From Candidatus Saccharimonadota bacterium (GTDB taxonomy: Bacteria > Patescibacteriota > Saccharimonadia > Saccharimonadales > Saccharimonadaceae), in contig JAFRWP010000014.1 of the NCBI GenBank assembly GCA_017437945.1, positions 62,001-126,000 on the forward strand: a DNA stretch of 64,000 bases, in the 5' to 3' direction. The notes beneath the pieces are model-generated. The model did no database searches. It had not been told where the DNA came from and saw only the letters and a list, made by a program, of their open reading frames with translations. Of the stretch, positions 23,698-30,837 are shown one piece after another; within the stretch, counting starts at the first letter, position 1, and the number at the start of each line of letters is the position of its first letter. Made by a program: the position numbers and the translations under genes.

Positions 23698-23890
23698 TAT
23701 TCGAATGATTTCGGATACAGCACATTTTCAGACATTATTCACAATTAAATAACTCTATCAATCGATATCTTCTTATCGAGCGTCAAGCGCATTCCTCGAG
23801 TGCGTTTAGCGCTCGATAAGAGGGCCTCTGACATGCAATTATGCTTGCAGAGAAATCGACGAGCCCTCTTGAGTGAGGGTAGAGGAGGTA
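23698..23890 (+). promoter_or_regulatory. Long structured 5' leader of the 23896 cassette
   Basis: The leader of about 190 bases contains two strong consecutive hairpins. One is at about 23771-23820 (CTTATCGAGCG pairs with CGCTCGATAAG, with further inner pairing). The other is at about 23820-23868, where GAGGGC pairs with GCCCTC and CTCTG with CAGAG. The SD AGAGGAGG follows directly. No known riboswitch core was recognised; it could be a regulatory RNA. Confidence 0.6.
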
Positions 23891-23895
23891 TTTAT

Positions 23896-24696
23896 ATGGC
23901 TAATGAGAAGAAGAAAGTAATCCCTGGTTACTGGTTCGTCGACACCGACGGCAATGCAATTCCTGTTGCCGGCGGTATGAACCCCGCCATGGATCATGTG
24001 GTCGTCGACATCAACGAGCGCGAATACCGCGCCCGCGTCGAAGGCTGCAGCAAAGACTACGTTCCCACGGAAGCCCAGAAAGAAACCGCAACCGACCTTA
24101 TTGAAAAATGGATTCACCGTCACGAAAAAGGATTTCCGGCTGCCACTGACTATGTCAAGGTTACTGTCGGAAGCACTCAGACGGAAAAACCGAGCGATGT
24201 CTCGGTGCCAGAAATGGTCATCGAGCTCCCCAAGGGCGGCCTGAGCCCGGAAATCATCAGCAATGCTGATGAAAAAATCAAGTACGGCTTCGAACGCATC
24301 TTCGCTGCCCAGGTCAAGACCGAAAAGCCCGCGGACAATCCGCCTGCTCCTCCAGCCAAGACCGAACAGACTGAACCGGCCAAGACCGAAAAGCCTGCGG
24401 AGAACCCGCCTGCGCCGGCCAAGACCGAACAGACCGCGGACAATCCGCCTGCTCCTCCAGCCAAGACCGAACAGACTGAACCGGCCAAGACCGAAAAGCC
24501 TGCGGACAATCCGCCTGCGCCGGTCAAGACCGAAAAGCCCGCGGACAATCCGCCTGCTCCTCCAGCCAAGACCGAACAGACAGCGGACAATCCGCCTGCC
24601 CCGGCCAAGACCGAACAGACTGAATGGCGTTACGACTCCTCCAAGAGCCCCCGCCAGAACATCCTCGATCGGCTGGGTGCGGTCGAAGGCTTCTGA
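23896..24696 (+). CDS. Cassette protein with a Pro/Ala/Lys-rich repeat tail
   Basis: The 266-residue soluble protein has an N-terminal domain of about 140 residues (IPGYWFVDTDGNAIPVAGG at the start, then mixed alpha/beta) that I cannot assign. The tail of about 100 residues repeats PAPPAKTEQT and KTEKPADNPP, and there is a short conserved-looking end (SPRQNILDRLGAVEGF). No signal peptide or membrane helix is present. The start is ATG 23896, with GAGGAGG 6 bases upstream; the GTG at 23800 is inside the leader and rejected. The repeat tail is probably extended and disordered and may be a linker or multivalent binding arm. It has its own promoter, leader and terminator. Confidence 0.82.
   Translation: MANEKKKVIPGYWFVDTDGNAIPVAGGMNPAMDHVVVDINEREYRARVEGCSKDYVPTEAQKETATDLIEKWIHRHEKGFPAATDYVKVTVGSTQTEKPSDVSVPEMVIELPKGGLSPEIISNADEKIKYGFERIFAAQVKTEKPADNPPAPPAKTEQTEPAKTEKPAENPPAPAKTEQTADNPPAPPAKTEQTEPAKTEKPADNPPAPVKTEKPADNPPAPPAKTEQTADNPPAPAKTEQTEWRYDSSKSPRQNILDRLGAVEGF
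24310..24625 (+). repeat. Tandem coding repeats in the 23896 gene
   Basis: Variants of a unit encoding AKTEQTEPAKTEKPADNPPAP occur in several mosaic copies, so the array has grown by duplication of both 30- and 60-base blocks. Confidence 0.85.
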
Positions 24697-27934: not shown

Positions 27935-28009
27935 GCGGGTTTCATATAACGGTTATTATGTGAGTTTTCCAAACTCAACATGAGAGTTCGACTCTCTCAA
28001 CCCGCACCA
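27935..28009 (+). tRNA. tRNA-Gly (anticodon TCC)
   Basis: Acceptor GCGGGTT/AACCCGC, anticodon stem TGAGT/ACTCA with loop TTTCCAA (anticodon TCC, U33 present), T arm GAGAG-TTCGACT-CTCTC, and CCA encoded at 28007-28009. The D arm is AT-rich and short. It lies 13 bases after tRNA-His, and the pair shares one terminator. Confidence 0.92.
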
Positions 28010-28059: not shown

Positions 28060-28182
28060 TTGAGAGAAGCGAACGTAGTTCGCCCGTGGTAGGAGCCGAG
28101 CGTAATAGGAATGCTTGCATTTCTATTACCGAGGCGACGCCCCACGGGAAAGCCTTGCCAACGGCAAGGCGCTCTCTCTCAA
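28060..28182. ncRNA. Structured intergenic element E3 (multi-branched, possible RNA)
   Basis: An outer stem (TTGAGAG with CTCTCAA, 28060 and 28182 ends) encloses three features. The first is a perfect hairpin GCGAAC/GTTCGC (28069-28083). The second is a long arm closed by CCCGTGG/CCACGGG, containing GCCGAG/CGAGGC with tandem G.A pairs and a GTAATAG..CTATTAC stem. The third is a hairpin GCCTTGCC/GGCAAGGC (28152-28170). GGT-AGGAG-CCGAG at 28088-28100 matches the core motif of E1 and E2. No promoter or open frame is visible; it lies between two terminators. Whether it is transcribed is unknown. Confidence 0.55.
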
Positions 28183-28201: not shown

Positions 28202-28233
28202 AAAAAAATACTCCGGCCTTCATAGACCGGAGT
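28202..28233 (-). terminator. Terminator of the archaemetzincin-like gene
   Basis: On the reverse strand ACTCCGG pairs with CCGGAGT, followed by A and seven T. Confidence 0.92.
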
Positions 28234-28240
28234 TTTGGGT

Positions 28241-28999
28241 TTATCCAGCAATATCTGCTCTTTGGACCATTCGCCGAGTCGGCGCCGGTATCCTTGGCAA
28301 GGCTCCCCTTGGTCGCCGAGACGACAGTCTCTTTTGTTCGTCCGCGTCATAGCGCGTTCTCGCAATCAGCAAATCTCTCATGCATTGTGGGCAGAAGCAA
28401 TTTGTCGGATCCTCATGAATCGCTTTTCTGAGCAGCTGTCGCACATCACTTACTTGCTGCATCGAGCAGCAGTAGTTCGTGCAATGGCAGCCATACCTTT
28501 TATTTGTATTCGTACGACCAGACGAAGGACAACCAAATATGTGCCCCAGTTCGTGCCTCAACGTCCTTCGGATACAGATCGACTCTTCTTCGTCTGAAAG
28601 TCCACGGAAACGTCTTACGCTCTGCACGGATGCGTATCCTTTAGCTAGGCCCATGCACCATTCGAGGTTATGATAACCACTATACAAGTCTTTACTTGTA
28701 ATCATTATAAGAGCCCCAGGTACCGTCCAGCTATCATTTAGATCATTCAGCTTGTCCAACAGCGCTTCGCCGTTAATCCGACCAAACTTATTCCTTTCTG
28801 CCGAAGTAATCAGTTGATCCGCAGATCTATAGCTCCCTTCCGGCCACTCACTTGTGCCGTAGAGAAAAATATCACTGCCAACAAAGATTGATCGAATTTC
28901 CATGAGACCTTGCCGAATAGCCTTCTTTTCTGCCTCCTTAATCGTACTATCGTAACAAATATAGATTGGAAACACCCATTGATCACACCCCTTGATCAA
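28241..28999 (-). CDS. Archaemetzincin-like zinc metalloprotease
   Basis: The 252-residue protein contains HELGHIFG (about 149-156), then HC-x4-C-x-M (about 172-180; HCTNYCCSM) and a later CPQC (about 203-206). Archaemetzincins (peptidase M54) have HExxHxxGxxHCx4CxM and a downstream CxxC, with the last His as third zinc ligand. Here the first block and the HC block are separated by about 13 extra residues. No signal peptide is present, so it acts inside the cell or is released by lysis. The start is uncertain: TTG at 28999 is the longest, but GTG at 28975, with AGGGGTG upstream, is plausible. A consensus promoter at 29040-29068 and a terminator make it another autonomous cassette. Peptide substrates are unknown. 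Confidence 0.78.
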   Translation of the reverse strand: MIKGCDQWVFPIYICYDSTIKEAEKKAIRQGLMEIRSIFVGSDIFLYGTSEWPEGSYRSADQLITSAERNKFGRINGEALLDKLNDLNDSWTVPGALIMITSKDLYSGYHNLEWCMGLAKGYASVQSVRRFRGLSDEEESICIRRTLRHELGHIFGCPSSGRTNTNKRYGCHCTNYCCSMQQVSDVRQLLRKAIHEDPTNCFCPQCMRDLLIARTRYDADEQKRLSSRRPRGALPRIPAPTRRMVQRADIAG

Positions 29000-29039
29000 A
29001 AATATGCCATCAGGAGCACAAAAGCCCCCAATCTTTCTT

Positions 29040-29068
29040 ATTATAGCATAAACGGGTTAAAAAGTCAA
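29040..29068 (-). promoter_or_regulatory. Consensus promoter of the archaemetzincin-like gene
   Basis: On the reverse strand TTGACT (29068-29063), 17 bases, TATAAT (29045-29040) preceded by TATGC. It lies just beyond the pilB stop, so the gene is not part of the pilus operon. Confidence 0.9.
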
Positions 29069-29076
29069 TATCAGGA

Positions 29077-30837
29077 CTACGCCAAATCAGATGCGACGCG
29101 GTTTACTTCTTCCAACGTCGTAACACCGGTCAAAGCCTTCAACATACCATCTTGGCGCATCGTAATTGCGCCTTTCATCTTTGCAACGCGCATAATATCA
29201 CCAGAGGTTGCATGCGCCACAATCAATTTCTGAATATCCTCATCCACCGCAATTGTCTCATAAAGACCAGCACGGCCTTTATAACCATTCGGAGTTTCTT
29301 CTGAATCAACACCTTTTACCAAAGTAAAGCTCTTCGAGTTCGCCACCGGCAAAGTACCGTAGCCCATCTTCTCGCTGATCTCTGCTACCTGACCCTGCGT
29401 TGGTGGTAACAAATTACCGACTACCTGCTTAATCACGTTCGTTTCAAGCTCGGACGACTGATAGGAATCGCGACGTTCCGCGACGCGACGCACAAGACGC
29501 TGACCAATCACCGTGTTCAAAGTCGAAGCAATCAAGAATGGCTCAATGCCCATATCGAGCAAACGTGGCATAATACCTGCAGCCGAGTTGGTGTGTAGCG
29601 TCGAAAATACCAAGTGGCCCGTCAAAGCCGCCTGAACAGCCAGGTTCGCTGTTTCACCATCGCGAATCTCACCTACCATTACTACGTCAGGGTCTTGACG
29701 CAAAATCGAACGCAAACCCGACGCGAACGTTAGGCCAGCATCGTTATTAATCTGAATCTGGTTAACACCGTCCATCTTGTACTCAACTGGATCCTCGAGT
29801 GTCACGATGTTAATCTTTTCATCCTTAATCTTCTTAATCAACGCATAAAGAGTCGTAGACTTACCAGAACCAGTAGGACCAGAAGTCAAAATCATGCCAT
29901 TCGGCTTCGAAATACCATCAAGCACATCCGCCAAAGCGCGACCAGTCATACCCATCTTCTCTACTTCCATCGAAGTACCAGATTTATCCAAAAGACGAAT
30001 AACCACTTGCTCGCCCCAAACCACTGGCGATGTCGCAATACGAAGGTCAATAGGATTATTATTTACAAGCACTGCGAACTGACCGTCTTGTGGAATACGG
30101 TGCTCATCAATCTTAAGCTTCGCCATAATCTTAATGCGCGAGACTAGTGCCGGCTCAATCGACTTCGGTAGCTCCATTGTCTGACGCAAAACGCCATCGA
30201 TGCGCATACGAATAACCAATGATTTTTCAAGTGGCTCAATGTGAATATCCGATGCCTTAGACTTAGCCGCATAATCAAGAATCGAAGCGAGAGCCTTAGA
30301 AATTGGCGAATCCTCCGTAATCGTCTGCGCCTCTTGGCCAGATTGACTACGTACCGCCTCTTCCTCTTTCTGAGCCGCCTTGTTAACATCTTCAAGGTCG
30401 GCCATGTACTGCTGAATCGCGTTCTCAATGCCCGCATCCGAAGTCATTACAGCCCGGATTGGCATTTTCACGAGCGTCGAAATATAGTCCGTACGCTGAA
30501 CGTTCGTCGTATCAAGCATCGCCACGACCAACATGCCATTCTGCTCTCCTAGAGGTACAGCCCTAGAACGCTGCGCTACATCTTGCGGAATCCTTTTCAG
30601 CATTTCTTTGTCGAACTTCACATTACGAAGATCATAATAGGCTATACCCATCACGACCGCCGTGGCGTGCTGTACGCAGTCATCCGAAACGATGTTCTTA
30701 CTTTTGAGCACCGCCAAAATAGGCTGTCCGCTCTTTGCGACCTCATTATAGGTCTTTTTCACGAGCCCAGCATCAACAAGCCCATATTCTATCAAAAGGC
30801 TTACTACTTTGTTTTGTGTCTCCTTATTTAGGAGCAT
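29077..30837 (-). CDS. pilB: Type IV pilus assembly ATPase PilB (GspE family)
   Basis: The 586-residue hexameric ATPase powers pilin polymerisation. The N-terminal MshEN/T2SSE domain (about 1-150) is followed by the N2 domain and the ATPase core: Walker A GPTGSGKST at 320-328, Asp box, Walker B (DVVMVGEIRDGETA) and the His box (GHLVFSTLHTN). The zinc-binding CxxC pairs usual before GYxGRxGxYE are missing, although GYKGRAGLYE itself is present. It is the last gene of a five-gene operon pilM-pilN-pilO-orf-pilB; PilC, PilT, PilD and pilins are not in the window. Confidence 0.94.
   Translation of the reverse strand: MLLNKETQNKVVSLLIEYGLVDAGLVKKTYNEVAKSGQPILAVLKSKNIVSDDCVQHATAVVMGIAYYDLRNVKFDKEMLKRIPQDVAQRSRAVPLGEQNGMLVVAMLDTTNVQRTDYISTLVKMPIRAVMTSDAGIENAIQQYMADLEDVNKAAQKEEEAVRSQSGQEAQTITEDSPISKALASILDYAAKSKASDIHIEPLEKSLVIRMRIDGVLRQTMELPKSIEPALVSRIKIMAKLKIDEHRIPQDGQFAVLVNNNPIDLRIATSPVVWGEQVVIRLLDKSGTSMEVEKMGMTGRALADVLDGISKPNGMILTSGPTGSGKSTTLYALIKKIKDEKINIVTLEDPVEYKMDGVNQIQINNDAGLTFASGLRSILRQDPDVVMVGEIRDGETANLAVQAALTGHLVFSTLHTNSAAGIMPRLLDMGIEPFLIASTLNTVIGQRLVRRVAERRDSYQSSELETNVIKQVVGNLLPPTQGQVAEISEKMGYGTLPVANSKSFTLVKGVDSEETPNGYKGRAGLYETIAVDEDIQKLIVAHATSGDIMRVAKMKGAITMRQDGMLKALTGVTTLEEVNRVASDLA

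Follow-up and report, generated by a model that had tools for sequence, protein, structure and literature searches.

Archaemetzincins are best known from archaea, and the published metzincin consensus places the third zinc ligand at a fixed short distance after the second. The fingerprint published for the family (MEROPS M54) is HEXXHXXGXXHCX4CXMX17CXXC, with five residues between HExxH and HC (PMC3427221). The solved AmzA enzymes (2x7m, 3zvs, 4axq, and 3lmc in the Protein Data Bank [PDB]) are described as inactive in standard assays (PMC3427221), so the fold does not guarantee activity. CarG of Myxococcus xanthus, a bacterial archaemetzincin homolog with four cysteines, has Gln in place of the catalytic Glu and is part of a transcription regulator, according to the same account (PMC3427221). 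AMZ-tk (TK0512) of Thermococcus kodakarensis is reported as a divergent archaemetzincin of low identity to the others that keeps the motif as HExxHxxGx3Cx4CxMx17CxxC, without a long spacer (PMC4681839). Reprolysins (M12B, e.g. acutolysin A [1bsw]) share the metzincin fold, and their cysteines are described as forming disulfides (PMC3427221).

We analysed a 64,000-nucleotide stretch (hereafter the window) from the genome of a Candidatus Saccharimonadota bacterium, assembled as 952,266 bases in 14 contigs; the organism is a tiny, probably parasitic bacterium. An open frame on the minus strand (28241–28999) carries HELGHIFG, HC-x4-C-x-M, and CPQC, all in frame, as a preliminary description of this DNA had claimed. 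That description began the protein at a TTG (28999), which adds eight residues relative to a GTG at 28975. Judged from the sequence, the GTG is likely to be the start codon, because relatives found in the same place open with MFPIYIC there, at ATG or TTG. The gene and its motif, with coordinates counted from the GTG, are as follows:

28241..28975, minus strand: long-loop archaemetzincin-like gene, 244 amino acids from GTG, stop at 28241
28541..28555, minus strand: HELGH, residues 141–145, predicted first two zinc ligands and catalytic Glu
28487..28540, minus strand: 18-residue spacer, residues 146–163, containing 13 extra residues
28460..28486, minus strand: HCTNYCCSM, residues 164–172, with the predicted third zinc ligand H164, C165 and C170, and the Met-turn M172
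28382..28393, minus strand: CPQC, residues 195–198, with C195 and C198, which complete the predicted Cys4 zinc site

In this numbering (that from TTG in brackets), the motif residues are H141/E142/H145 (H149-E150-x-x-H153), H164/C165 (H172-C173), C170 (C178), M172 (M180), and C195/C198 (C203, C206).

The window protein shares with the AmzA archaemetzincins the predicted fold, HExxH, a third His followed by Cys, Cx4C before the Met, CxxC, and an N-F-x-F-G edge-strand region. It departs from them in spacing: HExxH and HC are separated by 18 residues rather than 5, a net insertion of 13 (the HELGHIFG and HC blocks lie 15 residues apart), and the Met and CxxC by 22 residues rather than about 17 (16 in the canonical rows measured here). 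HELGH and HCTNYCCSM agree with the HExxH and HC-x4-C-x-M elements of the M54 fingerprint, whereas the HExxHxxGxxH spacing of the third ligand and the x17 interval before CxxC are not found, although CPQC is present. Both an insertion between the zinc ligands, with about 13 residues separating the first two blocks, and the longer second interval had been pointed out in the preliminary description; the insertion proves to be common to a subfamily and not to this gene only. The motif is not a chance occurrence, because it is kept in homologs at 21–43 per cent identity, and the residues H, E, H, the third H, the four Cys, the Met, and M-x-Q are invariant in all 12 rows of a profile built from twelve relatives (A2).

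As a single sequence, the protein falls below both curated archaemetzincin cut-offs, scoring 20.9 bits with Pfam M54 (PF07998; cut-off 24.4) and 36.7 bits with the NCBIfam model NF033823 (cut-off 145); Reprolysin_5 gives 15.8 bits (cut-off 27). Profile-profile comparison aligned A2 with a profile of six canonical rows (A6; five from Patescibacteria and one from an unclassified metagenome-assembled genome) through all motif blocks (99.0 per cent; E = 2.4e-18). Against PDB sequences, the top four matches of A2 were the archaemetzincins 2x7m (1.7e-10), 3zvs (1.5e-6), 4axq (1.6e-6), and 3lmc (3e-6), followed by a snake venom protease (0.012). In Pfam scans of the twelve single relatives, Reprolysin_5 (best 2e-5) was level with M54 (best 1.6e-4), each matching five members. 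The comparison with M54 envisaged in the preliminary description thus finds archaemetzincins first at the level of profiles but leaves the single sequence under the curated thresholds. Because two parts of the fingerprint and both cut-offs are missed, we call the protein archaemetzincin-like and withhold strict M54 membership.

Predicted structures agree with the profiles. The first AlphaFold2 model, with four relatives in its alignment, reached a pLDDT of 82.6 and a pTM of 0.80, and its fold matched archaemetzincins (Z 20.5 to 18.3; best 2x7m, 171 residues aligned) ahead of the best other metzincin, acutolysin A (Z 14.6). Since one of the four relatives was canonical (L111), we built a second model from long-spacer sequences only, without any canonical sequence (pLDDT 74.8, pTM 0.75), and archaemetzincins again led (Z 18.1 to 16.6; best 2x7m, 172 residues aligned; next match 13.7). 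With both models, the ranges aligned to archaemetzincins extend past CxxC. An archaemetzincin fold is therefore well supported as a prediction, and the profile and the two models together bear out the earlier description of the protein as archaemetzincin-like, with archaemetzincins ahead of other metzincins. Other metzincin families were rejected on the same rankings, as was membership in the reprolysins: Reprolysin_5 weakly matches 5 of the 12 relatives, but archaemetzincins score higher in both fold and profile comparisons. A library of viral structures yielded matches at E < 0.001 to three proteins, two of them from giant viruses. The preliminary description had asked whether its His 172, our H164, can complete the zinc site; the predicted fold and the invariance of this residue in A2 suggest that the HC block most likely does so, a ligand role that remains model-based.

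Among 49 rows collected, 34 carry the HExxH...HC motif, with a spacer of 5 residues in the six canonical rows, 8 in one row, and 16–22 in 27 (19 in eleven of these). The long spacers contain an Arg in 22 of 27 rows and have a Gly within three residues before HC in 21 of 27; in the loop, R154, N156, T157, and G162 are invariant among four genes that share the genomic location described below, and the glycine of HExxHxxG is gone in many relatives. Long-spacer members also occur outside the order to which the window belongs (G351, G537, and G384). It is because of the 16–22-residue spacer that curated M54 models miss these genes.

The catalytic Glu is retained in the window protein (E142), and the CarG-type loss, compared by published description (PMC3427221), was found only in the remaining 15 rows, which come from seven genomes of the genus. 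These Glu-less rows form one clade (support 100/100); many are in tandem, with short spacers, and most retain the cysteines. Two Glu-less ortholog sets that were tested have dN/dS of 0.12–0.50, and the maintenance of such copies under selection indicates that the fold has non-catalytic uses. The canonical rows group separately (100/99), and the four same-location orthologs likewise form a clade (98/93). The tree, which contains long branches (G025, G351, and the Glu-less rows) and gives uncertain positions for G018, G025, and the Glu-less clade, was interpreted for its starred clades only. It excludes members shorter than 150 amino acids, such as the G010 fragment, and members that fell short of the domain cut-off of 1e-13; three rows from G537 and G384 joined the spacer table after the tree, and G474 is absent from the placement, as its motif was not recovered by the search pattern. 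At four loci (L100, L101, L102, and L098, in G036, G031, G026, and G020), tandem Glu-less genes lie beside a KAP-family NTPase gene; the same loci have tandem copies of a family starting with MG[VI]YF, without a Pfam match, and lie near surface-polysaccharide-like genes.

The surroundings of the window gene contain the following features:

29040..29068, minus strand: promoter TTGACT-17-TATAAT, 11/12 match, on the gene's own strand
28210..28233, minus strand: intrinsic terminator, a hairpin followed by a T run, on the gene's own strand
29077..30837, minus strand: pilB (T2SSE, MshEN), upstream neighbor, used only as context and rate yardstick
27935..28009, plus strand: tRNA-Gly (TCC), the other border of a variable slot, given as context only

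A gap of 101 bases separates the end of pilB from the GTG, and on the other side the gene is flanked by tRNA-Gly and tRNA-His on the opposite strand. With its own promoter (29068–29040) and terminator (28233–28210) on the same strand, the gene constitutes a one-gene unit, in agreement with the earlier view that it stands alone. One such site is no more than shuffling produces (mean 1.3); the promoter is kept in all five genomes that have the gene after pilB, and among the other 26 pilB loci one (L071) has a different site fitting the same loose pattern. Between promoter and start (29009–29032, minus strand) lies a hairpin-like stretch scored as terminator-like, and the leaders of L059–L061 and L089 appear, judging the pairing by eye, to have one of different sequence. 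Of the five slot genes, four (those of G000, G066, G027, and G061) have an out-of-frame ATG that precedes the likely start by 4 bases (28979 region, minus strand), at a good distance from a G-rich ribosome-binding site.

Matches to the family are scattered. One profile (A1) found it in 19 of 45 genomes of the genus (12 with HExxH and 7 with Glu-less copies only) and, weak partial matches included, in 24 of 294 genomes sampled from the order; A2 matched 11 of 379 genomes sampled from the phylum at 1e-5, some of the matches being canonical. Canonical archaemetzincins above the NCBIfam cut-off occur in 5 of 379 Patescibacteria genomes. In the genus, a search for PilB succeeded in 41 of the 45 genomes, and we read 30 pilB loci downstream (three with fewer than 170 bases left), with G018 read separately. 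We call the interval from pilB to tRNA-Gly a variable slot because, depending on the genome, it contains almost nothing or unrelated genes; our gene occupies it in G000, G066, G027, G061, and G018. These five genomes are the ones with the most similar PilB (G018 by a 264-residue fragment), which fits one gain; the gene at this site seems to have arrived a single time and to have reached these five related genomes by descent.

Relative to pilB, the gene has changed fast. In comparisons of G000 with G066, G027, and G061, its dN is 0.58–0.64 (with synonymous sites saturated) versus 0.066–0.076 for pilB, i.e. a nonsynonymous rate about eight to nine times higher; for G027 and G061, the one pair close enough, dN/dS is 0.275 for the gene versus 0.021 for pilB. 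Its GC content (0.475) is near that of the window (0.454), so its composition is native. Among the matches listed, no conserved partner gene is apparent, and catalytic members have different neighbors from locus to locus unless they are closely related. Searches against phage, plasmid, and IMG/VR sequences found no match and PHROGs gave a best E of only 0.31, and on these grounds phage or plasmid cargo was rejected; a role as a defence gene was rejected for want of a PADLOC match. The preliminary description had proposed horizontal acquisition and a phylogeny to find the donor. The patchy distribution is compatible with gain and loss, but the composition is native and the gene looks inherited after one gain at the pilB site, so a recent transfer from archaea is not supported. 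With systematic sampling in Patescibacteria only, the tree names no donor.

We consider it reasonably probable that the gene encodes a cytosolic, probably active, long-loop zinc peptidase with an archaemetzincin fold, gained once and diversifying fast under purifying selection. In this model-based reading, H141, H145, and H164 would bind the catalytic zinc, E142 would act as general base, M172 would form the Met-turn, and a structural zinc would sit on C165, C170, C195, and C198. As a path suggested by archaemetzincin anatomy as described in PMC3427221, the 13 extra residues would leave the core where the active-site helix ends and come back in a surface loop next to the cleft; H164 could then still reach the zinc, and the loop would alter which substrates are chosen. 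The stand-alone gene would have entered the site downstream of pilB a single time and would have diverged rapidly since, with purifying selection maintained. In the first model, strand 1 starts at residue 4, leaving no leader peptide; of the two modes suggested in the preliminary description, on host peptides or inside the cell, the second is favored for this reason. The data show the motif, the conserved long spacer, homology and fold (by profile and prediction), the promoter, the terminator, the rate, and the slot, whereas zinc binding, the ligand role of H164, catalysis, the place and role of the loop, and the cytosolic site are what we infer; a cytosolic peptidase is the most economical account because the catalytic residues are kept amid fast divergence, a leader is absent, and the gene is under selection.

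The same fold could instead serve a non-catalytic regulator or adaptor like CarG, with the loop as a protein-binding surface. CarG itself lacks the catalytic Glu within a transcription regulator (PMC3427221), and the 15-row Glu-less clade of the same genus retains the four cysteines under selection; the window protein and its slot relatives, however, retain every catalytic residue while the rest has diverged to 37–43 per cent identity, and we regard a regulator as unlikely. A canonical archaemetzincin received recently from archaea would suit the archaeal prominence of the family and the 5 of 379 Patescibacteria genomes in which canonical forms reach the curated cut-off. Yet the canonical rows are a separate clade, the long spacer is common to other families of the phylum (G351, G537, and G384), the composition is native, and the four same-slot orthologs group together; such a transfer is highly improbable and was rejected.

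Fast change, patchy occurrence (19 of 45 genomes), and a variable slot would also be expected of a protease engaged in interaction or conflict. Its target would be a protein of a host, a phage, or a rival, and it would either leave the cell by non-classical export or act within it against invading elements. The high dN relative to pilB and a basic disordered tail (pLDDT about 35–40) point the same way, and epibionts are described as using type IV pili to bind hosts (PMC12206443). The protein has no leader, however; many relatives have only a short basic tail or none; dN/dS is below 1; no PADLOC, phage, or plasmid match and, among the matches listed, no conserved partner gene was seen; and the VirB4 model PF03135 was not found in the genome itself, which is not decisive, as the model may miss the Patescibacteria type. 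We therefore hold this alternative to be rather improbable. Equally speculative is a broader version, in which the long-loop archaemetzincins of Patescibacteria form a fast-evolving family of interaction proteins whose catalytic members cut a changing target from a host, phage, or rival, with the loop setting specificity, and whose Glu-less tandem paralogs are decoys, inhibitors, or targeting adaptors; if true, organisms with very small genomes would possess an arsenal of proteases and pseudoproteases.

For the cytosolic peptidase that we prefer, the fold and chemistry are already known. What is new is that a Patescibacteria subfamily conserves a displaced third ligand, a feature of which we found no description in the open-licence PMC literature. 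Compared with AmzA, this family is fast-evolving and patchy in Saccharibacteria; compared with AMZ-tk, whose proteolytic activity is demonstrated (PMC4681839), the activity of the window protein is predicted. A subfamily with a spacer of 16–22 residues and all other catalytic and Cys4 residues kept would show that the third ligand need not follow the second at a set distance. As with CarG, the fold is apparently used without catalysis in the Glu-less tandem relatives, and a role in an epibiont of less than 1 Mb could make archaemetzincin function testable.

Two further observations concern other parts of the window. After tRNA-Gly, at about 28060–28182, lies a cloverleaf-like element of very high stability (-64 kcal/mol; z = -7.1), for the window copy of which Rfam gave no match at E <= 1 beyond tRNAs. 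Its core has seven further copies in the same genome (L155–L161). ARAGORN places a tRNA near six of the eight loci (Gly, Tyr, two Leu, Val, and Ala), and the remaining two follow a CCACCA end. In each copy, located after the terminator-like hairpin of the tRNA, the 5' strand is complementary to the T-stem/acceptor end of that tRNA, and in most copies the 3' end repeats the 3' end of its own tRNA with CCA. The layout resembles, we presume, that of the rtT repeats of E. coli. Elsewhere, an open reading frame at 23800–24696 (plus strand) contains a long run of imperfect KTEKPADNPPAP-type repeats.
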